Shown: one piece after another, positions 210 through 34,808 of the stretch
Layout of the letters: each line of letters begins with the position of its first letter
Numbering within the stretch: position 1 is the stretch's first letter
Assembly (NCBI GenBank): GCA_017380615.1
Contig: JAFODQ010000019.1
Coordinates: 1 to 34,856 of the forward strand
Length of the DNA stretch: 34,856 nucleotides
From: Clostridia bacterium
Lineage (GTDB): Bacteria > Bacillota > Clostridia > Oscillospirales > Acutalibacteraceae
Reading direction: 5' to 3'
The notes under the pieces: model-generated
Databases searched by the model: none
Told to the model about the DNA's origin: nothing
What the model saw: the letters and a program-made list of their open reading frames with translations, nothing else
Made by a program: the position numbers and the translations under genes

Positions 210-1913
210 TTATACAAGAACACGAAGAACTTCCTCAATAGAAGTTGTGCCTTCAAGAATTTTATCAATACCCTCCTGACGGAGTGTATGCATGCCCTGT
301 GATATTGCAAGCTCTTTAATTTCCTGAACGCCTGAGCGCTTAAGGATGAGCTGTTTGATTTCGTTTGTTACCTGAAGGAATTCAAATACACCCTGACGAC
401 CTTTATAGCCTGTGTTTGAACAAGCAATACAGCCCTTTGGCTCATAAATTTCTGTTGTGTCATCAAGTGTTTTTCCTTCCGGAATCGGGAAGTCCTCAAT
501 GCTATTTCGGATTTCACGATATGTGAGAGCTACCTTTTCCTTACAACGAGGGCAAAGCACACGAATAAGACGCTGTGCAAGAACGCCAACAAGTGATGAT
601 GCTGTAAGGAATGGCTCAACACCCATTTCATCAAGACGGGTGATAGCCGATGGAGCATCGTTAGTGTGAAGTGTTGAGAAAACCATATGTCCGGTAAGAG
701 CTGATTCAACAGCAATCTTTGCAGTCTCACCGTCTCGAATTTCACCGACCATGACGATATCAGGGTCAGCACGGAGAACGGAACGAAGAGCTGCTGCGAA
801 GGTCATACCTGCACGGTTGTTCATCTGTACCTGACAGATACCTGCCATACGACGCTCAACAGGGTCTTCAAGAGTGATAACATGCTTTGAAACGTCTGAA
901 ACCTCTGCAAGTGTTGCATAAAGTGTTGTTGATTTACCTGAACCGGTAGGTCCTGTAACAAGAAGGAAGCCATATGGCATAAAGATTGTTTTTGTGAATC
1001 TATCTACCTGATCCTTTGAGAATTTAATATCCTTAAGCTGAACAGACTTTGCACCACGTTCAAGAAGACGCATAACAATTTTTTCGCCATACACTGAAGG
1101 AAGCACAGCAATACGGATATCGAATGTTCTGTCATCAACCTTAACTGTTGTACGACCGTCCTGAGGAATACGTCTTTCGGCAATATCCATACCACCGATA
1201 ACCTTAACACGGGATGCAACTGAGCTGTGAAGCTTAATCGGGTTCTGAAGAACCTCATGAAGAACACCGTCAATACGAAGACGGATTCTCATTGTCTTTT
1301 CCATTGGCTCAATGTGAATATCCGATGCGCCAGACTTAACAGCATTTGTAATAACCTGGTTAACAAGCTGAACAGCAGGCTTTTCGTCGGCAGCAAGCTC
1401 ATCAAGAGCAGAAAGCTCTTCTTCCTGAGCCGCCTCTTCATCCTCATATGTGTCGATATTATTGGCGTTATTAACAATTGTATCAATAGCCGCATTGAGC
1501 TCTGATTCTGTTGAAATAAGCGGAACAATTTCAAGACCGCCCGTTCTTACAGACAAGTTATCACGCACACCAAGATCATTAGGGTTGCGCATAACAACGA
1601 ATAATTTCTTTTCATCCTGATAAAGAGGTAATATTTTTCTTTTAGCAATAAGCTCCGGAGGAATAATGTTTGCAATAGCAAAATTTATGCCCACCTCTTC
1701 AATTGAAACAAGCTTGTAGCCTGTTTTCTTTTCCATTGCTCGAGCAACATCAAGCTCACTGCAGTATCCAAGGTTTACGAGCTCTGAGGTAACCTCATTT
1801 TTACTGTCCTGAGCAATAAGCTGTGCTTCTCTTACCTGATCCTCGGTAACCTTTCCTTCCTTGATCAGGAAAAATTCAACACTACCGGGAATAATAACAT
1901 TAATATCTGCCAA
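210..1913 (-). CDS. pilB: Type IV pilus extension ATPase PilB
   Basis: This is a GspE/PilB-family hexameric ATPase that powers pilus assembly from the cytoplasmic face of the membrane. The 567 residues begin with an MshEN-like N-terminal domain (about 1-150) and an acidic linker (about 155-178). The ATPase core has Walker A GPTGSGKST at 321-329, an Asp box LEDPVE at 348-353, a Walker B region DPDIVMVGEIRD at 383-394 and a His box TGHMVFSTLHTN at 407-418. Two CxxC pairs, C454/C457 and C495/C498, form the zinc knuckle that distinguishes PilB from PilT. Length is normal. The start codon is TTG, preceded by AAAGGGG, and an in-frame TAG upstream excludes an ATG start. It is the last visible gene of the pil operon. 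Confidence 0.96.
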   Translation of the reverse strand: MADINVIIPGSVEFFLIKEGKVTEDQVREAQLIAQDSKNEVTSELVNLGYCSELDVARAMEKKTGYKLVSIEEVGINFAIANIIPPELIAKRKILPLYQDEKKLFVVMRNPNDLGVRDNLSVRTGGLEIVPLISTESELNAAIDTIVNNANNIDTYEDEEAAQEEELSALDELAADEKPAVQLVNQVITNAVKSGASDIHIEPMEKTMRIRLRIDGVLHEVLQNPIKLHSSVASRVKVIGGMDIAERRIPQDGRTTVKVDDRTFDIRIAVLPSVYGEKIVMRLLERGAKSVQLKDIKFSKDQVDRFTKTIFMPYGFLLVTGPTGSGKSTTLYATLAEVSDVSKHVITLEDPVERRMAGICQVQMNNRAGMTFAAALRSVLRADPDIVMVGEIRDGETAKIAVESALTGHMVFSTLHTNDAPSAITRLDEMGVEPFLTASSLVGVLAQRLIRVLCPRCKEKVALTYREIRNSIEDFPIPEGKTLDDTTEIYEPKGCIACSNTGYKGRQGVFEFLQVTNEIKQLILKRSGVQEIKELAISQGMHTLRQEGIDKILEGTTSIEEVLRVLV

Positions 1914-1967: not shown

Positions 1968-2564
1968 TCAGGAAGCTGCGTCCTGAATTGCACCATCAAC
2001 AACGGCGCTTACTGCACCCTCTGCACCCTGCTCTGAAAGGAATGCCAGTGCCAATGTTACACTGTATGTTCCGTCTGCATTTCTTGAGAGGCTGATGGAA
2101 TCAAACCTGTGAACCTGCTCAAGGTTTGAATAATAGTTCATAAAGTCATAAATGTTTCTGTATGAACCGTTTGCAACTATTGTGAACACTACCTCTTGTG
2201 TTTCGTTAACTGCAACTGTCTGATCAATTGAAGTAACACTCAAGCCGAAGCTTTTGCACTTGCCGAGCACATCCTCCTCAAGAAGGAAAACATCCCCCAG
2301 ACTATCGGGAAGAATATTCTTACAAGCTTCAAGCTGCTGCTCTGCAGCCTCACTCTTTACTTTAAGCTCCTCAAGCAATGCAACCTCGCGGACATTCTGC
2401 TCATACATTACACGAGCATCAACAATCTCATTTTTTGTTTTATCAATATCGAGCATAACAAAAACTATGCCAACAATAATGAGGATGCAAACAAATGACA
2501 TAATACCGATAACAAAGAATGGAGAGCTTGTTATATCTTTTAGTTCAATTTTCTTGCCTTTCAT
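1968..2564 (-). CDS. pilO: PilO-like T4P alignment protein
   Basis: This bitopic inner-membrane protein probably pairs with PilN to link cytoplasmic PilM to the outer parts of the pilus machine. The 198 residues show a short cytoplasmic start, one transmembrane segment at about 17-38, a predicted coiled coil at about 42-85, and a compact alpha/beta domain to the end, which is the PilO layout. PilO sequences diverge strongly, so the call rests mainly on topology and on position directly after pilM and pilN and before pilB. A GAAAGGAGAG ribosome site precedes the ATG, and the gap to pilN is 16 bases. Confidence 0.8.
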   Translation of the reverse strand: MKGKKIELKDITSSPFFVIGIMSFVCILIIVGIVFVMLDIDKTKNEIVDARVMYEQNVREVALLEELKVKSEAAEQQLEACKNILPDSLGDVFLLEEDVLGKCKSFGLSVTSIDQTVAVNETQEVVFTIVANGSYRNIYDFMNYYSNLEQVHRFDSISLSRNADGTYSVTLALAFLSEQGAEGAVSAVVDGAIQDAAS

Positions 2565-2580: not shown

Positions 2581-3207
2581 TTATTCCACTGCTAACTCAT
2601 CGGAAGCAGCTGTTGTGCTTGTGGCAGCTGTTGTTTCCTCAACAATAGGTGCAGCTCCACCCTCACAGGTGATTGCTACAACGAATGTTGCAACAGGCTC
2701 ACCATCAGTAACTGAAACTGTGTAGCTTGTGCAAACGGCACTTTTGACGCCCTGCATATTCTCAAGCTCTGACATATATTCTGTGAATGCAGTTCTTGAG
2801 GTTGCTGTGCCTGTGAGTGTGCACAATCTTGTGGTTTTCCACTCAACACAATCCATCTTGGTTACAGAAATACCGGGACGGTTAACATTACCGATACGAG
2901 CCACAAAATTGTAAAGCTGGGGTTCGTTCACCTGAATATCGTTAATAAGCTTAAGCTTTGACTGAAGATTATTATTGATATCTCTGTACTGCTGAAGGGC
3001 TGATACCTTCTGCTCATATTCACTGTTTTTTGCCTGAATTTCTGAAAGCTTTGCATCTGCAGCTACCTTACCGACAATGGTAACAAGAAGTGCTGCAAGA
3101 AGAACAAGCATAACAACGTTCGCAACGCCTCTGCCCTTTTCTGCTTTCTTTTTGCCGATTATTCGCTTTCTGTTTCTCTCAGGAAGCAAGCTAACTCTAT
3201 ATTTCAT
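2581..3207 (-). CDS. pilN: PilN-like T4P alignment protein
   Basis: This is a bitopic membrane protein of the T4P alignment complex. The N-terminus carries SLLPERNRK at residues 6-14. It matches the conserved NLLP-type motif with which PilN tails dock into the groove of PilM. A basic stretch, a transmembrane segment at about 29-49, a coiled coil at about 52-85 and an alpha/beta domain follow. A Thr/Ala/Glu-rich C-terminal tail (about 190-208) looks disordered. At 208 residues the length is typical. Its ribosome site GGAGG is embedded in the last codons of pilM, suggesting translational coupling. Confidence 0.87.
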   Translation of the reverse strand: MKYRVSLLPERNRKRIIGKKKAEKGRGVANVVMLVLLAALLVTIVGKVAADAKLSEIQAKNSEYEQKVSALQQYRDINNNLQSKLKLINDIQVNEPQLYNFVARIGNVNRPGISVTKMDCVEWKTTRLCTLTGTATSRTAFTEYMSELENMQGVKSAVCTSYTVSVTDGEPVATFVVAITCEGGAAPIVEETTAATSTTAASDELAVE

Positions 3208-3212
3208 TGTTA

Positions 3213-4184
3213 TTATGCCTCCAATCCGATCTGTGCAAGGCTTATACAGCCTGCATATTCTTTAGGTGAAAAGCTTGCATTTGCGTAATTTTCATAGAAG
3301 GATGGAACTGTAAGAGGAACATAAATTCTCTCTGCAAGCTGTGTTGCAAGCTCTCCCTCAAGAGCAGATGCTGTTGTGAACAACACTGATTCAATAATCA
3401 TATTTGTCTGCATCTGGAAATAGTTCATTGATGATGTAAGCTCAGACTGAAGAAGCTCAATAACAGTTTCCATTTCCAGTGATGTGAGCTCTTCCGGAGA
3501 ATGGAATGCCTTCTTTACCTCAATCAACGCTCTGTCAGGAATATTGATTGAACGGACCATCTTGATATCCTTATCAACAATAGCAACGAAATTAAGAACA
3601 TCGTCTGTGAGCGAAAGGTATGCAAAGGTTGAAGTTTCAGGCGCCTCGTCAATAGCAGCTCTGCACCATGCAAGGAAGGAGCTGTCTATATCCACAACCT
3701 CACACTTTGCTGCTTCAAAATTCTGAAGAAGATTTGTGAGCATTGTGTTTCGTGCACCAACAAGAATCATATTAAGTGCAGGCTGGTCATCATCATCGGT
3801 GGTTTCATCAACAACAACGAAGTCAAGACCAAGCTCTGAAACGGGAACGGGAATGAAATCCTGTGCCTGCATTGTCACAACACTTCTTAATTTATCCTGT
3901 GGAACCTTTGGAAATGTTGCATAACGCATAATAACATTTTCATTGTTAACACCAACAACAATCGGTGAATCCTTCTTAAAGTCACCCTGCTCGAACAAAT
4001 CTCCAAGAGCTGCTGTGAAAAGTGAGCTATCAGCTATGATACCCTCACTGATAACACCCTCCTGTAATCTGGTGCTTGCAGAACTGGTAACCTCAATTTT
4101 GCCCTCTGCTGTTTTAGTAAGCTCAACTGCCTTGATTTCGTATGAATTATACTCAATGCCGACAGCACTGTTAACTTTTGCCAT
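3213..4184 (-). CDS. pilM: PilM, actin-like T4P assembly ATPase
   Basis: This is a cytoplasmic actin/FtsA-fold protein that binds the PilN tail and connects the PilB/PilT motors to the membrane complex. The N-terminal phosphate-1-like segment VGIEYNSYEIKAVEL (residues 8-22) is of the kind seen in PilM and FtsA, followed by the PilM-type region around FPKVPQDKLRSVV. The 323 residues are slightly short of typical PilM (about 350). The subdomain after about residue 190 is less conserved to the eye. It lies between pilC and pilN, and a GGGAG ribosome site precedes the ATG. The identification is strong because the PilN neighbour keeps the docking motif. Confidence 0.88.
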   Translation of the reverse strand: MAKVNSAVGIEYNSYEIKAVELTKTAEGKIEVTSSASTRLQEGVISEGIIADSSLFTAALGDLFEQGDFKKDSPIVVGVNNENVIMRYATFPKVPQDKLRSVVTMQAQDFIPVPVSELGLDFVVVDETTDDDDQPALNMILVGARNTMLTNLLQNFEAAKCEVVDIDSSFLAWCRAAIDEAPETSTFAYLSLTDDVLNFVAIVDKDIKMVRSINIPDRALIEVKKAFHSPEELTSLEMETVIELLQSELTSSMNYFQMQTNMIIESVLFTTASALEGELATQLAERIYVPLTVPSFYENYANASFSPKEYAGCISLAQIGLEA

Positions 4185-4233: not shown

Positions 4234-5430
4234 TTATGCCTGATAAGATGTTGTTGCCTGGAAAACAGGAAGGTAAAGTGCGACGATAAGGAAACCAACA
4301 ACAGAACCAAGCAAAACAAGCATGATAGGCTCAAGAACTGAACCAAGGTTCTTTGCAATCGCATCAACGTCTTCCTCATAGAACTCTGCAACCTTATCAA
4401 GCATGGTGGGAAGTGAACCTGCTTCTTCTCCGATGGCTATCATACTTATAACCATTGGTGGGAATACCTTTGATTCATCCAATGCTTCGTGAATTGTTCT
4501 ACCGTTTTCAACATCCTCAATCGCCTTGTTAACAGCATCCTCAACAAGCTTGGAGCCCGATGTGGGACCTGCTGTTTCCAGGGCTTTAACTGCTGTAACA
4601 CCACCTGCAACAAGTGTTGCGAAGATACGGCAGAAACGGGCGAAAATCGTCTTTGAAATAAGCTCACCCACAATTGGTGTGTTCATCTTGTGATTTTCCC
4701 AAAAGTGCTGTACCGGTGGGGATTTGATAACCTGAACAATGATAAAAATTATTGCCACAATAGCGGGAATAACAATATACCACTTTGTTCTCAAGGCATC
4801 TGACATATTATAAATGAGCTGTGTAATGGGGTTGATATCTCCGGCACCCTCTGTCATGCCCTGGAAGGTAGGTACCATGAAAATAAGCATGAAGATAACA
4901 ATGACAATAGCAAGGCCACCAACCATTTTGGGGTATGAGGTTGCAGACTTAACAGAGTCCTTGAGCTGCTTGTCTTTATGTAACTGGTTAGACATAGCAA
5001 GGAGTGTCTTATCAAGCATACCACCCATTTCACCGGCAGCAATCATTGAACAGAACAGGTCGCTGAAAACTGGCTTCTGCGCGCTGAAAGCATCTGAAAG
5101 TGCAGCACCACCCTCAACATCTGATGCAATTTCCTTGATTGAATTTGCAAGTGTTGGGTTTGTGGTCTGAGCAACAAGAGTGCTCATCGCTTGGGTAACA
5201 GGAATACCTGCACCAATCATGGCAGCAAGCTGACGGGAAAACAAGGACATGTCAGCAAGTGTAACCTTTTTACCACCCTTTTTCTTTTTGGTTGCAGCAT
5301 TCTCTTTAAGGCTTGTAACAACAACGCCCGCTTCACGGAGCTTTTCATAAGCCTCTGATGTGGAGTTAGCGACAACCTTACCGGTTATGGATTCACCTTG
5401 TCGGTTAAGGGCTTCGTATGTAAAATCCAA
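4234..5430 (-). CDS. pilC: T4P inner-membrane platform protein PilC
   Basis: This polytopic GspF/PilC-family protein forms the membrane platform between the motor ATPases and the pilus. From the chosen start it has 398 residues, with two repeated T2SSF domains (about 61-183 and 263-385). These carry the paired motifs GEMGG (133-137) and GEEAG (334-338). Transmembrane segments lie at about 169-189, 218-235 and 367-390. I chose the TTG at 5428-5430: AAGGGGGA sits just upstream and the protein then starts LDFTYEALNRQGE, as family members do. The open frame continues 31 codons to an ATG at 5523, but that extension only reads through the AT-rich tandem repeat and is Tyr/Ile-rich junk. Confidence 0.93.
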   Translation of the reverse strand: MDFTYEALNRQGESITGKVVANSTSEAYEKLREAGVVVTSLKENAATKKKKGGKKVTLADMSLFSRQLAAMIGAGIPVTQAMSTLVAQTTNPTLANSIKEIASDVEGGAALSDAFSAQKPVFSDLFCSMIAAGEMGGMLDKTLLAMSNQLHKDKQLKDSVKSATSYPKMVGGLAIVIVIFMLIFMVPTFQGMTEGAGDINPITQLIYNMSDALRTKWYIVIPAIVAIIFIIVQVIKSPPVQHFWENHKMNTPIVGELISKTIFARFCRIFATLVAGGVTAVKALETAGPTSGSKLVEDAVNKAIEDVENGRTIHEALDESKVFPPMVISMIAIGEEAGSLPTMLDKVAEFYEEDVDAIAKNLGSVLEPIMLVLLGSVVGFLIVALYLPVFQATTSYQA

Positions 5431-5461
5431 AGAGTTATCCCCCTTTTGAGAATATATATAA

Positions 5462-5521
5462 TATATATAATATGTATAGCGAAAGCCACGCAATATATAA
5501 TATGTATAGCGAAAGCTACGC
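5462..5521 (-). repeat. Two 30-bp tandem repeats with a small hairpin, pilT-pilC gap
   Basis: Units 5462-5491 and 5492-5521 differ at only two positions. Each includes ATGTATAGCGAAAGC followed by YACGC, and the flanks are runs of AT. In the operon-sense RNA each unit can fold a short stem: GUAGC or GUGGC, loop UUUC, then GCUA. The one substitution inside the stem converts an A-U pair to a G-U wobble, so pairing is retained. The surrounding 169-bp gap (5431-5599) is otherwise AT-rich. It also contains an imperfect inverted repeat with GGCTT near 5592 and AAGCC near 5550. Confidence 0.8.
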
Positions 5522-5599
5522 AATATATATATAAATAGTATAGTAAGGCTTTTATCTTTTCATTTTATGTAAATAACAGATAAGCCGTCTGTTCGCAAA

Positions 5600-6688
5600 T
5601 TAATACATCTGCATTTGACGAAGAATCTCAGCTCTTTCAACACAGTTTTCAAGAACTGATTCTCTCGAAATTTTCTGCTCTCTGAGAAGCTTCAGAAGAG
5701 CCTGGTCCATTGTCTGCATACCTTCCTTCTGGGCGGTCTGCATTGTGGAATATATCTGGTGATCCTTACCCTCACGAATCATGTTACGGATAGCCGGAGT
5801 GTCAACCATATATTCAACAGCTGATACACGGCCTCCGCCCAATCTCGGAAGAAGCTGCTGTGAAATAACTGCACGCAGTGTGTTTGAAAGCTGGCTTCGC
5901 ACCTGATTCTGCTGTTCACTCGGGAAAGAGTCAATAATACGGGCAATTGTCAGAGGCGCCGTCTGTGTGTGAAGTGTGGAAAGCACCAAGTGACCGGTTT
6001 CAGCCGCTGTAAGAGCAATACTGATACTTTCAGCATCACGCATCTCACCGATCATAATAACATCAGGGTCGTGACGAAGAACTGTTCTCAAAGCATTGTT
6101 AAAGCTGAGAGTGTCACCACCAAGCTCACGCTGTCTGATAATTGAGCGCTTGTGAGAATGAAGGAATTCTATCGGGTCTTCAATGGTAACCATGTTGTAC
6201 TCAAAATTTGTGTTCATATGGTTCAGCATTGCCGCAAGAGTTGTTGACTTACCTGAACCCGTTGGTCCCGTAACAAGAATAAGACCACGAGGAAGGGTGC
6301 ATAATCTTCTCACGTCCGCAGGAAGACCGAGTTTATCAAGAGTAGGGATTTCAAATGGAATCGCTCTGAAAACTGCAGCAAGCGTGCCTCTCTGCACAAT
6401 CACATTTCCTCTGAAACGAGCACATTGTGGCACTGCATAGGAAAGGTCAAGCTCAAGATTATCGTGAAGGTCCTTCTTGTTCTTTTCAGACATAATCTGC
6501 ATAAGCATATTTTCGACATCGGCGGGTTTCATAGGGGGAAAATCCTGTTTAACGATGTCACCATCTATACGGATACAAGGAGGCATACCGACAACGATAT
6601 GAAGGTCAGAGCCTTTCTTTTCAACCGTAAGCCTGAGCAGCTGCTCAAGCGTTACGGGATATTCACTTGGTTGATTGAGGAATTCCAT
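5600..6688 (-). CDS. pilT: Type IV pilus retraction ATPase PilT
   Basis: This hexameric ATPase depolymerises pili, giving twitching or DNA pulling. The 362 residues contain the PilT N-terminal domain, Walker A GPTGSGKST at 141-149, an Asp box TIEDPIEF at 168-175, Walker B DPDVIMIGEMRD at 207-218 and a His box TGHLVLSTLHTQ at 231-242. The signature AIRNMIREGK at 299-308 corresponds to the AIRNLIRE motif required for retraction in PilT. There are no zinc-knuckle CxxC pairs, separating it from PilB. A CGGAG ribosome site precedes the ATG. It sits between the secretin-N protein and pilC, with a repeat-bearing 169-bp gap before pilC. Confidence 0.96.
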   Translation of the reverse strand: MEFLNQPSEYPVTLEQLLRLTVEKKGSDLHIVVGMPPCIRIDGDIVKQDFPPMKPADVENMLMQIMSEKNKKDLHDNLELDLSYAVPQCARFRGNVIVQRGTLAAVFRAIPFEIPTLDKLGLPADVRRLCTLPRGLILVTGPTGSGKSTTLAAMLNHMNTNFEYNMVTIEDPIEFLHSHKRSIIRQRELGGDTLSFNNALRTVLRHDPDVIMIGEMRDAESISIALTAAETGHLVLSTLHTQTAPLTIARIIDSFPSEQQNQVRSQLSNTLRAVISQQLLPRLGGGRVSAVEYMVDTPAIRNMIREGKDHQIYSTMQTAQKEGMQTMDQALLKLLREQKISRESVLENCVERAEILRQMQMY

Positions 6689-6712: not shown

Positions 6713-8416
6713 TTAGATTCTTGACCACATATCAAGGATAAGGTCAATATTTTCAGGTGATTCAAGTACATAGAGAACATGCTTGATACCTTCATCCGAT
6801 GGATCAAGGTCGCCTGAAAGCTCAAATGATGCAACTGAAACAGATGGGCTGTTGATAAGCTTAACAACAAGCTCTTCCTTAGCTGCAAGCACAAGAAGCT
6901 CTGAGGATTCTGTGATTGTTGCGATTGGATAATACATATCGCCCATATTGTTATCGAGAGAAGCAATGATTTCCTTTACTTCCTCAACCTTATTGGTTGC
7001 ACAGTAAACCATGATTGACTTTGTGAGCTGAGGATATGAGCCGAAATAGAACTCAACATCTTCAATATCAATAAAGCCGATTTTGCTCTGAAGCTCTGAA
7101 GCAACGATGTTCTTAAGCTCGTAAACAAAGAATGTTCTGTCTGTATTGTTATCTGCTGTGTCGTTTTCCTTAATGCGTTCAACAGCAGCATTTACCTCGT
7201 CTGTTTCACCCTGGATCCAGATTCTCTTTTCATAGAGATCAAGACCAAGAACCTCAACCTTGTAGCCGAAGGTGCTGATGATTGACTGAGCTGCTTCCTT
7301 GTTGATGTAAGCAAGGTCAACCTTTACAAGAGATGTATTACCATCCGAAATAACCACATCACTTGTTGTGCCGTCTGATGTACCACTGTTGGTGTCATCA
7401 CTTGTATTATCGCCTTCACCATCGGTAGCGCCGCCTGCTGCACCACCATCGGTCTGAGCATTCGGATCGTAATAGTCAACAAGCTTCTTGATGTTCATAA
7501 TGTCGTTGTAAGCATCGCCTGTTGCATAAACATAAAGCACCATTGGGTGAGATGTTGTTGTGATACCTGTGTGAAGACCAAGAGCACCAAGCAATGAGCT
7601 GAACTCAGCAGCTGTGATATGCTCAAGCTCAATAGCTGTAAGGTTTGTGCTGATGCTTGCACTACCAACTGTGATATTTTTCTTATTATCGAGTGTTTCA
7701 ATAAGCTCTGCCATTTTAGCAAGCTGCATAGGGTAGCCGCTTACCCAGAACTCACGGAGGTTAATGTCAACCTTTACAATCTGAACACTGATGCCCAATG
7801 TTGAAAGCTGTGATGTAAGTGTATCGGTTGATATGTACTTAAGTGAGAACTTTGTGAGAGCCTTGTTATCAATAAAGTTACCGTTAAGTGTTTCCGCTGT
7901 GCCCACATAGAGGAGATTATCGTTCTTGATGTATGTCATATCAACCATACGAAGAACATAATCAATAGCTGTGATCGGAGTAACGTTTTCAAGAGAAATT
8001 GCAGGAACTGATGCTGCAGAACCCTTATAAATCATTCGGTAGCCTGTGTGTGCAAGAATTGTTTCAAGAACACCAACAAGGTCTGATCCATCTTCAAATT
8101 CAATTGAGATTGAGCTTGATGAGCCGAAGACTGTTGTTGAGTCATCTTCAACTGAAGCGGCACCGGGAATAAGAAGCTTCTGACCCTTCTGGAGAGCTGC
8201 TGAAGCTGAGATGCCGTTGCAATCAACAATGCTTGCCACTGTTACACCGTGTGCAGCTGCGATGGATGAAATTGTATCGCCGTCCTTAACAGTGTAGGTT
8301 CCCATAAGGTCATCTGATGAGCCTGCTGCTGTAAGCGGAAGAACCATGCTTGTGAGCAACACGAACACGAGGGCAAATATGCCTATTGACCTCATTCTGC
8401 TGTTTTTTGTTTTCAT
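6713..8416 (-). CDS. Secreted LysM protein with secretin N-domains, no barrel (PilQ-like)
   Basis: The 567 residues start with a signal peptide (hydrophobic 10-30, ending LTAAGS) and then a LysM peptidoglycan-binding domain at about 40-84 (YTVKDGDTISSIA). An STN/secretin N0-like domain spans about 103-172, with SISIEFEDGSDLVGVLETIL and a following beta-alpha-beta pattern. Four N1/KH-like secretin_N repeats follow at about 186-246, 257-318, 361-417 and 427-488, and a weaker fifth copy at 496-566. A Gly/Asp/Thr/Ser linker (about 321-358) separates repeats two and three. The secretin barrel domain is absent. PilQ proteins have AMIN or N0/N1 domains plus a barrel, so this resembles the periplasmic half only. 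It lies between the PilP-like gene and pilT. I infer a wall-bound ring or sleeve for the pilus. Domain family is fairly sure; function is inference. Confidence 0.72.
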   Translation of the reverse strand: MKTKNSRMRSIGIFALVFVLLTSMVLPLTAAGSSDDLMGTYTVKDGDTISSIAAAHGVTVASIVDCNGISASAALQKGQKLLIPGAASVEDDSTTVFGSSSSISIEFEDGSDLVGVLETILAHTGYRMIYKGSAASVPAISLENVTPITAIDYVLRMVDMTYIKNDNLLYVGTAETLNGNFIDNKALTKFSLKYISTDTLTSQLSTLGISVQIVKVDINLREFWVSGYPMQLAKMAELIETLDNKKNITVGSASISTNLTAIELEHITAAEFSSLLGALGLHTGITTTSHPMVLYVYATGDAYNDIMNIKKLVDYYDPNAQTDGGAAGGATDGEGDNTSDDTNSGTSDGTTSDVVISDGNTSLVKVDLAYINKEAAQSIISTFGYKVEVLGLDLYEKRIWIQGETDEVNAAVERIKENDTADNNTDRTFFVYELKNIVASELQSKIGFIDIEDVEFYFGSYPQLTKSIMVYCATNKVEEVKEIIASLDNNMGDMYYPIATITESSELLVLAAKEELVVKLINSPSVSVASFELSGDLDPSDEGIKHVLYVLESPENIDLILDMWSRI

Positions 8417-8478: not shown

Positions 8479-9000
8479 TCACTTACTGATTTTCTTTGTT
8501 ACCTCTCCGGCTTTGAAAAGAACATAGTCGGATGTGATTTCTATAAGCTCCCAGCTGCCGACTGTTTCACCCTTTGCAAGAGTGAGGGTGTCACCTGCTG
8601 AGCCGATTTGGATTAATGCAGTCTTAAGACCACTGCTGCCCTTAACATAGCCTTTATACTTTGCAGAAGCAAGAATGTCTTCTGAAAGCGGATCCTGATC
8701 GATAAGCTCAACAATCTCTTTATCCTTGAGGTTGTTATTATCCGGCAGAACCTGAACCTGATTCTGGTTAACATTTATGTCGTTGGGATCAGGAACATTA
8801 TCACCTGTGAGCACCCCGTCACTGAGAATCAGGAAAAGAAGTATTCCCACAAGAATCAGAAAGAGCACCACCGGGATTATAATTTTCATTATGGGGTTCT
8901 TATCAAAGAAATCCATAATCTTGAGAACGAAATCGTTTTTCTGAACTGACGCTTTCGCTGCCTTATCTTTTTTGCCGAATTTTGGTAATTCGAGAGCCAT
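8479..9000 (-). CDS. PilP/GspC HR-like membrane protein
   Basis: The 173 residues have a basic cytoplasmic segment (1-36), one transmembrane helix at about 38-60, a polar Asn/Asp-rich linker (about 66-100) and a small C-terminal beta domain (about 106-170). The terminal pattern runs KYKGYVKGSSGLKTALIQIG, then a glycine-led segment, a VGSWELIEI strand and DYVLFKAGEV. This matches the homology-region fold of PilP and GspC, which bridges PilN/PilO to secretin N-domains. I chose the ATG at 9000, with GGAGG eight bases upstream, rather than the in-frame ATG at 9063, which would add 21 poorly supported codons. It is the first gene of the pil operon and immediately precedes the secretin-N protein. 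The PilP assignment is by pattern and position, not by strong identity. Confidence 0.65.
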   Translation of the reverse strand: MALELPKFGKKDKAAKASVQKNDFVLKIMDFFDKNPIMKIIIPVVLFLILVGILLFLILSDGVLTGDNVPDPNDINVNQNQVQVLPDNNNLKDKEIVELIDQDPLSEDILASAKYKGYVKGSSGLKTALIQIGSAGDTLTLAKGETVGSWELIEITSDYVLFKAGEVTKKISK

Positions 9001-30628: not shown

Positions 30629-32161
30629 TTATTTTCTTCTGTGTCTGTGGTGCTTTCTTCCTGAGCTACCGTAGTAATAGCTGCTGTTATGGCTGCCATA
30701 GTAGTAAGAAGAACCATAGTAGCTGCCATATCTGCCTGAGAAATAACCACCGGCCTTAGCAGAGCTCATTCTGAGTGTGCCTGCACCTGCACGGTTATAA
30801 ATACAACCAAGAAGGTCTGCCTTTGTTGTCATGATGTCACTAAGAGCATATTCAATCTGACGAAGAGCAACTCTTTCCTCTGCAGCAACGAAAATCATTG
30901 TGTCTGTGTAGTTAGCAACGATAGCTGCGTCAGCAACAACACCTGCAGGAGGACAGTCGATAATAACATAATCAAAGTTAGCCTTTGCTGTTTCAACAAT
31001 CTTTGCCATACCTGCTGAAGCAAGTGTTTCTGATGGATCTGCAACAGCTGCAGAAGCAACAAGGAGATAAAGGTTATATCTTTCAATGTACTTAACAGAC
31101 TCTTCAAAGGTCTTGTTACCGTTAACGATATCGTAAATACCCTTTTCGTCTTCAAGAGAGATACCAAGTGTTTTACAAACAGCAGGCTTTCTCAAGTCAG
31201 CATCGATAAGAAGGACAGACTTGCCACTCTTTGCAAGAGAAAGAGCAATGTTTGAAGAGCAGGTTGTTTTACCTTCACTCTCAGTGGAGCTTGTGATAGC
31301 AAAAACAGTGAAGCCCTTCTTGTGATTTGCGTTCTCAATCTTTGTTCTGATAAGCTTGAAGGTTTCAATGAACGGAAGACCAACGTTTCTGTCTGTGATA
31401 AGAAGGCGTGTACGGTCATTCTTATTCTTTGTCTTGATGTCGGAAACAGTTGCAAGAATATCAACATTGAAGTTGTTCTTGATATCATCCGTTGAAAGAA
31501 GCTTGTTCTGAATCTTATCTGTGATAAGAATGATAACAACAGCAAGAGCTGCACCTAAAATGAAGCCGATGGCTGTGTAAACGAGTGCAGAAGAGTCTGA
31601 AGCAAGCTCAGCCTGAGTTGCACTGTCAGCAACAGTGATGTTAGCTGTTGGGAATGCTTTGTTAACAATATCAAGGTAAACACTCTGAATAGCAGTTGCA
31701 ATAGCGTATGCTGTTTCCTGATCAGGGCTGTTCACAGAAACTGTGAGAAGAGTTGTATCCTGACCGATTTCAACACCAACCATGCTTCTGATTTCTTCCT
31801 TTGTAAACTCCATGCCGGTTGTTGCCTTAACGGTGTTTGCAATTTTATTTGCAAAGTCATTACCAATCTGGAGAAGCACCTTAAAGTTATTTGCAATGTA
31901 GGTTGAAGCCTGAGCGTCACTGGCAGTAACATACTTAGCAGCATCACCGGCAATCTCTCTGTCCTTGTTTGAACAGTTGAAGATTATTGTTGATGTGTAG
32001 CTTTCCTGGTATGTTGCCTTTGCAATAGCAAAGCCGGAAACTGAGAAAATTGCCACAAAAATAAGGATGAGCCACCACTTCGAGATAATCTGACGCATGA
32101 ATTTGAATATAAACTCAAGGCCGATTTCTTCTTCGGTGTTTCTTTTTTCTTCGTATGCCAT
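30629..32161 (-). CDS. Fused Wzc-type chain-length regulator and BY tyrosine kinase
   Basis: The 510 residues join a Wzz/CpsC-type N-terminus, with transmembrane segments at about 29-48 and 193-214, to a cytoplasmic bacterial tyrosine kinase. The kinase has a Walker A segment STESEGKTT at 292-300, Walker A' LLIDADLRKP at 317-326 and Walker B YVIIDCPP at 398-405. The tail 473-497 holds ten tyrosines in a Gly/Ser context, the autophosphorylation cluster, then a His/Arg/Lys-rich end. In Firmicutes this is usually split into CpsC and CpsD, whereas here both are on one chain, with a shorter extracytoplasmic part than Gram-negative Wzc. It regulates polymer export or synthesis at the membrane. It has its own promoter. 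Confidence 0.92.
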   Translation of the reverse strand: MAYEEKRNTEEEIGLEFIFKFMRQIISKWWLILIFVAIFSVSGFAIAKATYQESYTSTIIFNCSNKDREIAGDAAKYVTASDAQASTYIANNFKVLLQIGNDFANKIANTVKATTGMEFTKEEIRSMVGVEIGQDTTLLTVSVNSPDQETAYAIATAIQSVYLDIVNKAFPTANITVADSATQAELASDSSALVYTAIGFILGAALAVVIILITDKIQNKLLSTDDIKNNFNVDILATVSDIKTKNKNDRTRLLITDRNVGLPFIETFKLIRTKIENANHKKGFTVFAITSSTESEGKTTCSSNIALSLAKSGKSVLLIDADLRKPAVCKTLGISLEDEKGIYDIVNGNKTFEESVKYIERYNLYLLVASAAVADPSETLASAGMAKIVETAKANFDYVIIDCPPAGVVADAAIVANYTDTMIFVAAEERVALRQIEYALSDIMTTKADLLGCIYNRAGAGTLRMSSAKAGGYFSGRYGSYYGSSYYYGSHNSSYYYGSSGRKHHRHRRK

Positions 32162-34163: not shown

Positions 34164-34808
34164 TTATTCGTGACAGTCCGGACAGGAGCAAAGAATTGTT
34201 CCATCCTCAAAAATATAGTAATAATGTGGATTTCCATCGTCATCAGGAGAAAGAGGACAAACAGGAATCTCTGCATTTGCAAGATATGTGTAGAACTTAA
34301 CATCCTTTAATTTTTCCTTTTTCAGGTATGTGCCTGCCTTGCAGCCTTCTGTGTACTCCTGATTCTTGTTCTGTCTGTATCCACCTCTCAGATCTCCGAG
34401 AGTAAAGGCAATTTTCCCGGGAATCTGCTGATCCTTAATAAGAACAAAGCACGCCTTGCCATCATAAGTATCGTCACCGTTGCCGTTAATATCATCTGCC
34501 TCATATACGGTCTTATGATCATCCTGCACCCTTGAAAAATCAATATAAACCTGCTTCGGCTCAATGATATTCAGTGCGCTGTCTCTTTTATATTGTGCCA
34601 TTCCGTTATCAATCATACCGTACATGGCTTCTCTGACCTGGGCTTCCAGAACCTCGCGCTGATTTGCACAGTCCTCAACCTGCTTGTTTCTGTATGCCCC
34701 GGTAAAAAGTGGCACAGCCACAGCAGTGAGAATTGCCATAATCACAACAACCGTGAGAAGCTCGACGGCTGTGAAGCCTTTTTTGGATTTCAGTAATTTA
34801 AATAGCAT
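34164..34808 (-). CDS. Type IV prepilin-like protein, cysteine-rich
   Basis: The 214 residues have a class III-type leader, KKG|FTAVELLTVVVIMAILTAVAVPLF, cut by a prepilin peptidase after Gly11. Phe is at +1 and Glu16 is the +5 glutamate, and a hydrophobic assembly helix follows. The head domain contains seven cysteines (47, 120, 156, 184, 207, 209, 212), three of them in the terminal CSCPDCHE. An Asp/Asn/Gly loop (DINGNGDDTYDG, 106-117) resembles calcium loops of pseudopilins. It is much larger than a typical major pilin head and may be a minor pilin or pseudopilin. GAGGTGAT precedes the ATG. Confidence 0.88.
   Translation of the reverse strand: MLFKLLKSKKGFTAVELLTVVVIMAILTAVAVPLFTGAYRNKQVEDCANQREVLEAQVREAMYGMIDNGMAQYKRDSALNIIEPKQVYIDFSRVQDDHKTVYEADDINGNGDDTYDGKACFVLIKDQQIPGKIAFTLGDLRGGYRQNKNQEYTEGCKAGTYLKKEKLKDVKFYTYLANAEIPVCPLSPDDDGNPHYYYIFEDGTILCSCPDCHE

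Follow-up and report, generated by a model that had tools for sequence, protein, structure and literature searches.

Why would a bacterium of a single-membrane lineage carry, within a type IV pilus operon, a secretin homologue that lacks the barrel? The question is raised by a gene, here called Q, on contig JAFODQ010000019.1 of the Clostridia bacterium assembly GCA_017380615.1, of which we analysed positions 1 to 34,856 (the window, 34,856 nucleotides). Our answer, which we consider probable, is that Q represents a secretin's periplasmic half, kept as a pilus scaffold or collar together with the neighbouring protein P, and that it is tied to the wall by a LysM domain. Handles below denote families (f), genera (g), genomes (G) and loci (L).

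The open reading frame that a preliminary description had placed at 6713..8416 is real but lies on the minus strand (8416..6713), and its reported position between a PilP-like gene and pilT agrees with the gene order. Read on the minus strand, the type IV pilus operon runs P, Q, pilT, pilC, pilM, pilN, pilO, pilB, and the locus beyond pilB is lost at the window edge.

8479..9000, minus strand: P, PilP/GspC-like protein of 173 aa (start set by relatives)
6713..8416, minus strand: Q, barrel-less secretin homologue of 567 aa with signal peptide, LysM, N0 and N1-type repeats
5600..6688, minus strand: pilT (TIGR01420, 475 bits, over cut-off)
4234..5523, minus strand: pilC, platform protein (T2SSF, E 1.1e-59)
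3213..4184, minus strand: pilM (PilM_2, E 1.3e-14)
2581..3207, minus strand: pilN (weak PF05137 match, E 0.023, and place in the operon)
1968..2564, minus strand: pilO, short form of 198 aa (PF04350, E 4.4e-7, over cut-off)
210..1913, minus strand: pilB, extension ATPase with MshEN (T2SSE, E 9e-134; MshEN, E 9e-11)

With PilB, PilT, PilC, PilM, PilN and PilO encoded in one locus, the predicted machine is of type IVa, and the MshEN domain of PilB suggests that extension is under c-di-GMP control. A lone type IV pilin-like ORF was noticed by eye near the opposite edge of the window (34164-34808). Also in the window is a BY-kinase/Wzz-type gene (30629-32161) whose relatives are the immediate upstream neighbours of P in 10 of 12 loci of the genus; since leuS rather than this gene precedes P here, the window may reflect a rearrangement or an assembly effect. 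Several f32 loci have peptidase-like genes upstream of P (by eye). Rfam gave no match in the window, and its promoter-like sites (24 versus 16.4 in shuffles, sd 4.4) and terminator-like sites (7 versus 5.6, sd 2.8) were not used.

Domain make-up of Q and P

The domains of Q and P are positioned as follows, all on the minus strand.

8324..8416, minus strand: signal peptide of Q, residues about 1-31 (by eye from sequence)
8165..8296, minus strand: LysM domain of Q, residues 41-84 (Pfam PF01476, E 9.6e-14)
7883..8113, minus strand: N0/STN domain of Q, residues 102-178 (hhalign, and match to PilQ in the PDB with the family profile)
7679..7864, minus strand: N1-type repeat R1, residues 185-246 (Secretin_N under cut-off; hhalign 96.4%)
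7466..7654, minus strand: N1-type repeat R2, residues 255-317 (hhalign 86.6% to secretin N1, 98.2% to R1)
7343..7465, minus strand: variable Gly/Ser/Thr/Asp-rich linker between R2 and R3, residues 318-358
7157..7339, minus strand: N1-type repeat R3, residues 360-420 (hhalign 94.2%)
6947..7141, minus strand: N1-type repeat R4, residues 426-490 (hhalign 77.8% to secretin N1, 95-96% to R3)
6716..6946, minus strand: C-terminal domain R5, residues 491-567 (no barrel; relation to N1 in doubt)
8485-8691, minus strand: C-terminal HR-type domain of P (hhalign to PilP-place proteins)

The LysM domain was evident in a Pfam search with Q alone (51.5 bits against a PF01476 cut-off of 20.9). The families that make up PilQ are STN (PF07660, N0), Secretin_N (PF03958) and the barrel (PF00263). 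Searched singly, Q matched Secretin_N below its cut-off (residues 190-244, E 2.9e-5, 24.6 bits against 28.2) and the NCBIfam PilQ model TIGR02515 weakly (residues 102-185, E 0.016), and STN gave no Pfam match. When the 13 members of an alignment of Q proteins that includes the window's own (A3) were scanned with Pfam at a loose threshold of E 10, Secretin_N matched all 13 (best 1.3e-16), STN matched nine (best 8e-9) and LysM matched 12, the exception (L047) being a sequence that starts inside the gene. Among solved structures, the A3 profile picked out PilQ (E about 2e-5, profile positions 102-176) and the N0 of GspD (E 0.0039). Profile-profile comparison by hhalign aligned the N0 of Q with that of real Bacillota secretins at 99.1% (P 1.3e-18) and R1 to R4 with secretin N1 at the values listed above, while five decoy families reached 3.4% or less in the same comparison. 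These scores establish an N0 and four N1-type domains and leave a fifth doubtful: R5 scored 5.8% against secretin N1 and 0.1% against the barrel set, and its comparison with R3 gave 43.1% one way and 55.5% the other. The secretin N-terminal domains and the LysM that the preliminary description had read by pattern are thus borne out, and its "four to five" N1-like repeats come down to four with R5 in doubt. The linker between R2 and R3 has the lowest identity in A3 among the regions measured (0.35). In a search of 30 ORFs drawn from loci of the phylum that encode secretins, 21 matched the Q profile with E values of 1e-5 or lower, led by L117 (88.4 bits, model positions 12-298); the nine that did not match include at least one ORF picked in error.

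The barrel, whose absence had also been proposed, is indeed missing. PF00263 has no match in the window's genome (91% complete), N0 and R1 to R5 score at most 0.3% against the barrel set, and no barrel was present in any Q read across several families of the class. A 95.7% match of the Q LysM to the "barrel" set is to the C-terminal LysM of diderm secretins and not to the barrel; with lax filters, the barrel model gave weak matches on other Q proteins, mostly in its first ~50 positions, which correspond to the tail of the N1 domain. TsaP combines LysM with an FlgT-type C-terminal domain, and SpoIIIAG-type proteins carry the ring-building motif of the sporulation channel; among the matches listed for Q and the A3 members there is no FlgT-type family (Pfam) and no SpoIIIA-type family (Pfam and NCBIfam).

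P has a single N-terminal hydrophobic segment that is a putative membrane anchor (by eye). Pfam gave no PilP or GspC family match and the PDB none for P, PF04351 had no single-sequence match in 10 P proteins scanned, and the P of one relative matched GspC weakly (E 0.0057), so the assignment of P as a relative of PilP was decided by profile-profile comparison only. That comparison aligned P with the PilP-place proteins of diderm Bacillota at 97.6% (P 3.7e-12, 64 columns), as against 2.0% or less for four unrelated families and 0.1% or less for ten column shuffles. The proteins at the PilN, PilO and PilP places of these diderm loci, like many neighbours, owe their names to position or to inspection by eye. 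Of the 14 secretin loci read in the phylum, 10 have a PilM recognised by score, then three small ORFs at these places, then the secretin; two more (L134, which is cut, and L139, with one extra ORF) come close to this order, and L137 and L138 do not. With a predicted anchor, an HR-type domain and a gene just ahead of Q, P of the window is a PilP homologue.

Distribution of Q and the two kinds of pilus machine

Within the genus, Q accompanies the retraction motor. Q was found in 12 of 22 genomes, the window's own included, and all 12 have a PilT over cut-off; nine of the 10 genomes that lack Q have no PilT over cut-off (four with weaker matches), and the tenth (G010) has a partial PilT that exceeds it. 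Many weak matches of the Q search in the genus cover only the LysM and are ordinary LysM proteins. Across the order, Q occurs in 9 of 197 genomes, own included; a tenth candidate (G231/L038) was rejected by eye as another protein family. In the class, Q is present in 19 of 391 genomes from several families, whereas PilT is over cut-off in 187, which indicates that most clostridial pili manage without Q. The class PilT list at E 1e-80 includes 18 of the 19 Q genomes, with G409 absent. A Secretin_N search of the class found 12 of the 391 genomes, all of them in the Q list, and missed, at its threshold, seven of the 19, including the window's own. The relatives met in one scan of 12 loci are metagenome-assembled genomes labelled Clostridia, Oscillospiraceae, Ruminococcaceae, Clostridiales DTU089 and Firmicutes ADurb.Bin300, several of them, by their titles, from ruminant gut.

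Gene order likewise places Q in a pilus operon in most genomes read, in line with what the preliminary description had read in the window. In 11 of 12 loci of the genus and 14 of 17 of the class, pilT follows Q, the other four being cut by the contig end, and the remaining pil genes come after pilT where the contig extends. A separate P precedes Q in nine of the 12 loci of the genus. Two more are truncated within Q, and for L046 a P-like ORF could be picked out, by eye, only in L011, which appears to be a copy of it. Among the 17 class loci, P is separate in 13 and fused to Q in two, and the remaining two have an unrecognised ORF of the same size. Two f7 loci have P-Q-pilC without pilT, with pilM next in one of them, and PilT is over cut-off in neither genome. 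Three f32 operons (L089, L090 and L092) have an extra protein of 233-235 aa between pilC and pilM.

Genomes with Q bear no mark of an outer membrane among the markers searched. No Omp85 turned up among the 29 Q genomes tested, and all three secretin-bearing Bacillota tested (G916, G778 and G630) have it. Among 20 genomes with Q and 10 congeners that lack it, none has a secretin over cut-off, and the sole PF00263 match below cut-off, L060, is a permease by eye. Of 398 genomes of the phylum searched with PF00263, 102 gave a match, 99 of them over cut-off. None of the 102 carries the label of the window's class, and at least 15 class members in that draw gave no match.

In the PilT tree, the 19 Q operons fall on one side of a branch with full support (100/100) and a long stem. 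They are apart from 30 Q-minus PilTs of the class (94/95), which are the 30 best-scoring loci and not a random draw from the 187 genomes, and from 16 PilTs of secretin genomes, relative to which the tree does not settle the joining point of the Q group. Some genomes have more than one PilT (e.g., G541). Neither P nor Q was found within about 1.5 kb of the 30 Q-minus PilT genes, nor in the 16 of these loci that were read more widely, 14 of which have the order pilB-pilT-pilC-pilin (L201 and L206 differ). Where PilO was recognised, it is of the short form in 17 Q loci (173-211 aa); of 10 Q-minus loci, four encode a PilO of 399-462 aa and six one of 181-269 aa. A role at the wall has been speculated for the large PilO of monoderms in the part seen of a 2019 review (PMC6916266). 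The best reading of these data is that clostridia have a second, diderm-like pilus machine with PilP and the periplasmic half of PilQ. The fuller proposition is about evenly balanced: that there are two clostridial machines, the known one without PilP and PilQ, and a diderm-like one, distinct in its PilT, whose PilP and membrane-proximal PilQ collar, wall-bound by LysM in several lineages, would guide the pilus through a thick wall as a remnant of an outer-membrane era.

Possible roles of Q

By what mechanism might Q serve the pilus? We propose that Q is the N0 and N1-type half of a secretin, kept after, or without, the outer-membrane barrel. P, the PilP homologue in the cytoplasmic membrane, would grip the N0 of Q, and the N1-type domains would extend outward from it in a stack, for which a ring or collar atop a base of PilM, PilN, PilO and PilC is the likeliest form. 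Such a collar may steady the pilus as PilB pushes it out and PilT pulls it in, and in the window's genus the N-terminal LysM would tie the collar to peptidoglycan. PilP is described, in the portion of the source available, as binding PilQ and the PilMNO complex (PMC10191384), which makes an outward order of membrane, P, N0 and N1 stack likely. A natural fusion of P and Q in two genomes of one genus, g169, supports the same geometry since it puts the HR domain beside N0: in L095 (P at 4-157 with 120.9 bits, Q from 176 with 259.8 bits) and in L102 (P with 120.9 bits, Q with 103.9 bits), P is joined straight to N0, without a signal peptide or LysM between them. The contig edge truncates L102 within Q, and in L095 stops interrupt the frame beyond R4, close to where the contig ends; the P-Q joint is internal in both.

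An alternative mechanism is that Q is a force-bearing tether and not a ring, joining membrane-bound P to the wall through LysM and holding the motor during retraction, with the N1-type domains acting as a flexible strut. LysM is present in the window's genus, f7, f37, f64 g240, f83 and two f18 genomes, G110 and G164 (f83 and L099 by eye), the R2-R3 linker in the window's genus is long and variable, and the f83 Q (L100, 8283-9050) is little beyond LysM, N0 and one N1-type domain, its 255 aa ending after R1; a long N1 stack is thus not universal. The P beside this short Q looks like a lipoprotein in one genome, with a lipobox-like FISGC (by eye). The difficulty for a tether is that LysM is absent from f32, three f64 g184 loci and the P-Q fusion, which nonetheless keep N1-type domains, and that such domains build rings in known secretins; we regard this alternative as possible but unlikely. 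LysM is also absent from f18 g33 and g68. The absences in f32 and g184 were read by eye, Pfam having been run among these sequences only on L086 and L095. As the fusion does without LysM, the domain is optional, and its absence from f32, the g184 loci and the fusion means that wall attachment cannot be the core function of Q. The proposal that a periplasmic half was kept and attached to the wall accordingly stands in part: the N0 and N1 half lies beside a PilP homologue in genomes where no Omp85 was found, and attachment through LysM is plausible for the window's genus but is not general.

It is also conceivable, although decidedly unlikely, that P and Q form a stand-alone envelope module with a non-pilus task that was recruited into some pilus operons. 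Four f18 genomes (97, 92, 93 and 75% complete; loci L052, L053, L054 and L059) retain P-Q with no match to PilT, PilB or the platform protein (T2SSF), and the motor-less Q is under purifying selection (pN/pS 0.06 and 0.38). Five of six f18 loci have ricT-like and often holB- and alr-like genes in the vicinity of P-Q and no recognised pilus gene, these gene names and most of the P proteins being assigned by eye. The f18 Q proteins (396-465 aa) are, however, the most divergent among the order members compared (19-22% identity to the window), one f18 genome (G094) has a PilT ~31 kb away on the same contig, and elsewhere Q goes with PilT within the genus and is followed by pilT in the genus and class loci that run past it. 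That Q is instead a decaying leftover of a diderm ancestor, devoid of present function, is highly improbable. P stands ahead of Q as in diderm Bacillota, no outer-membrane marker was found, the Q gene at L087 (3479-4906, G331) is split by an in-frame TAA, and the Q of L095 runs into stops close to its contig end; against this, frames are open across several families, the pN/pS of the window's Q is 0.31 against a close relative, the domains are conserved, and a fused form exists.

The collar remains our preferred explanation, weakened by the 187 PilT genomes set against 19 with Q in the class, by the four f18 genomes with P-Q in which no motor was found, and by f7 without pilT, the short f83 Q, the many members without LysM, and G409. 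The conserved pair of PilP and barrel-less PilQ offers a named and testable candidate for the way in which pili are held in, and guided through, a thick wall, and suitable strains can be selected by genome. It places the inner half of a secretin, a protein thought to be exclusive to bacteria with two membranes, in some gut and anaerobic bacteria with one. If the collar explanation is correct, the pair would show which part of a secretin is useful alone once the outer membrane is gone, and would bear on the descent of monoderm Bacillota from diderms.

Comparison with known systems

How pili pass through the wall is a live question in streptococci, according to the part seen of a recent source (PMC13192262). 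A 2019 review, as far as its available text goes, describes monoderm pili as working without a secretin and considers PilP, absent in S. sanguinis, to be logically absent (PMC6916266), and secretins are described as lost in monoderm systems in the portion seen of another (PMC6668835). PilQ homologues were reported in Gram-positive pil operons of D. reducens, P. thermopropionicum and H. orenii, and these operons cluster with Gram-negative ones (PMC3244431); the main text of that paper mentions neither PilP nor LysM. The open-licence literature searched, which lacks most subscription papers, yielded no account of a monoderm form that is without a barrel, bears LysM or is fused to PilP.

RcpC of Tad pili, in the text available, is a twelve-copy periplasmic conduit with a transmembrane-helix anchor, and it offers a model of how Q might work, a membrane-anchored ring that guides the pilus below the outer membrane; by its description it is set apart from Q by other domains (D1 and D2) and by joining a real secretin (PMC12307814). 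TsaP, described at PilQ in the part seen of one source (PMC7545093), offers a parallel to the putative role of Q in that it binds peptidoglycan next to a secretin ring. A further comparison is with PilQ of type IVa pili. Q shares with PilQ the N0 and N1-type domains and a gene that follows a PilP-like gene. LysM is also carried by TsaP, which is a separate protein, whereas Q has its LysM in the same chain. Q carries this wall-binding module ahead of N0, as many PilQ proteins carry AMIN according to the portion consulted (PMC7545093). Q differs from PilQ in having no barrel, LysM in place of AMIN, and four N1-type domains with a doubtful fifth, and its gene adjoins pilT, whereas the PilQ gene ends pilMNOPQ. 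The secretins of diderm Bacillota have in common with Q several N1-type repeats and the joining of LysM to a secretin. L114 and L117 have an N0, three Secretin_N stretches and a barrel, and L104 has four Secretin_N stretches, a barrel and two C-terminal LysM domains; two LysM domains were likewise observed behind the barrel in L105 and L107. These diderm secretins keep the barrel and bear LysM behind it, whereas Q bears its LysM ahead of N0.
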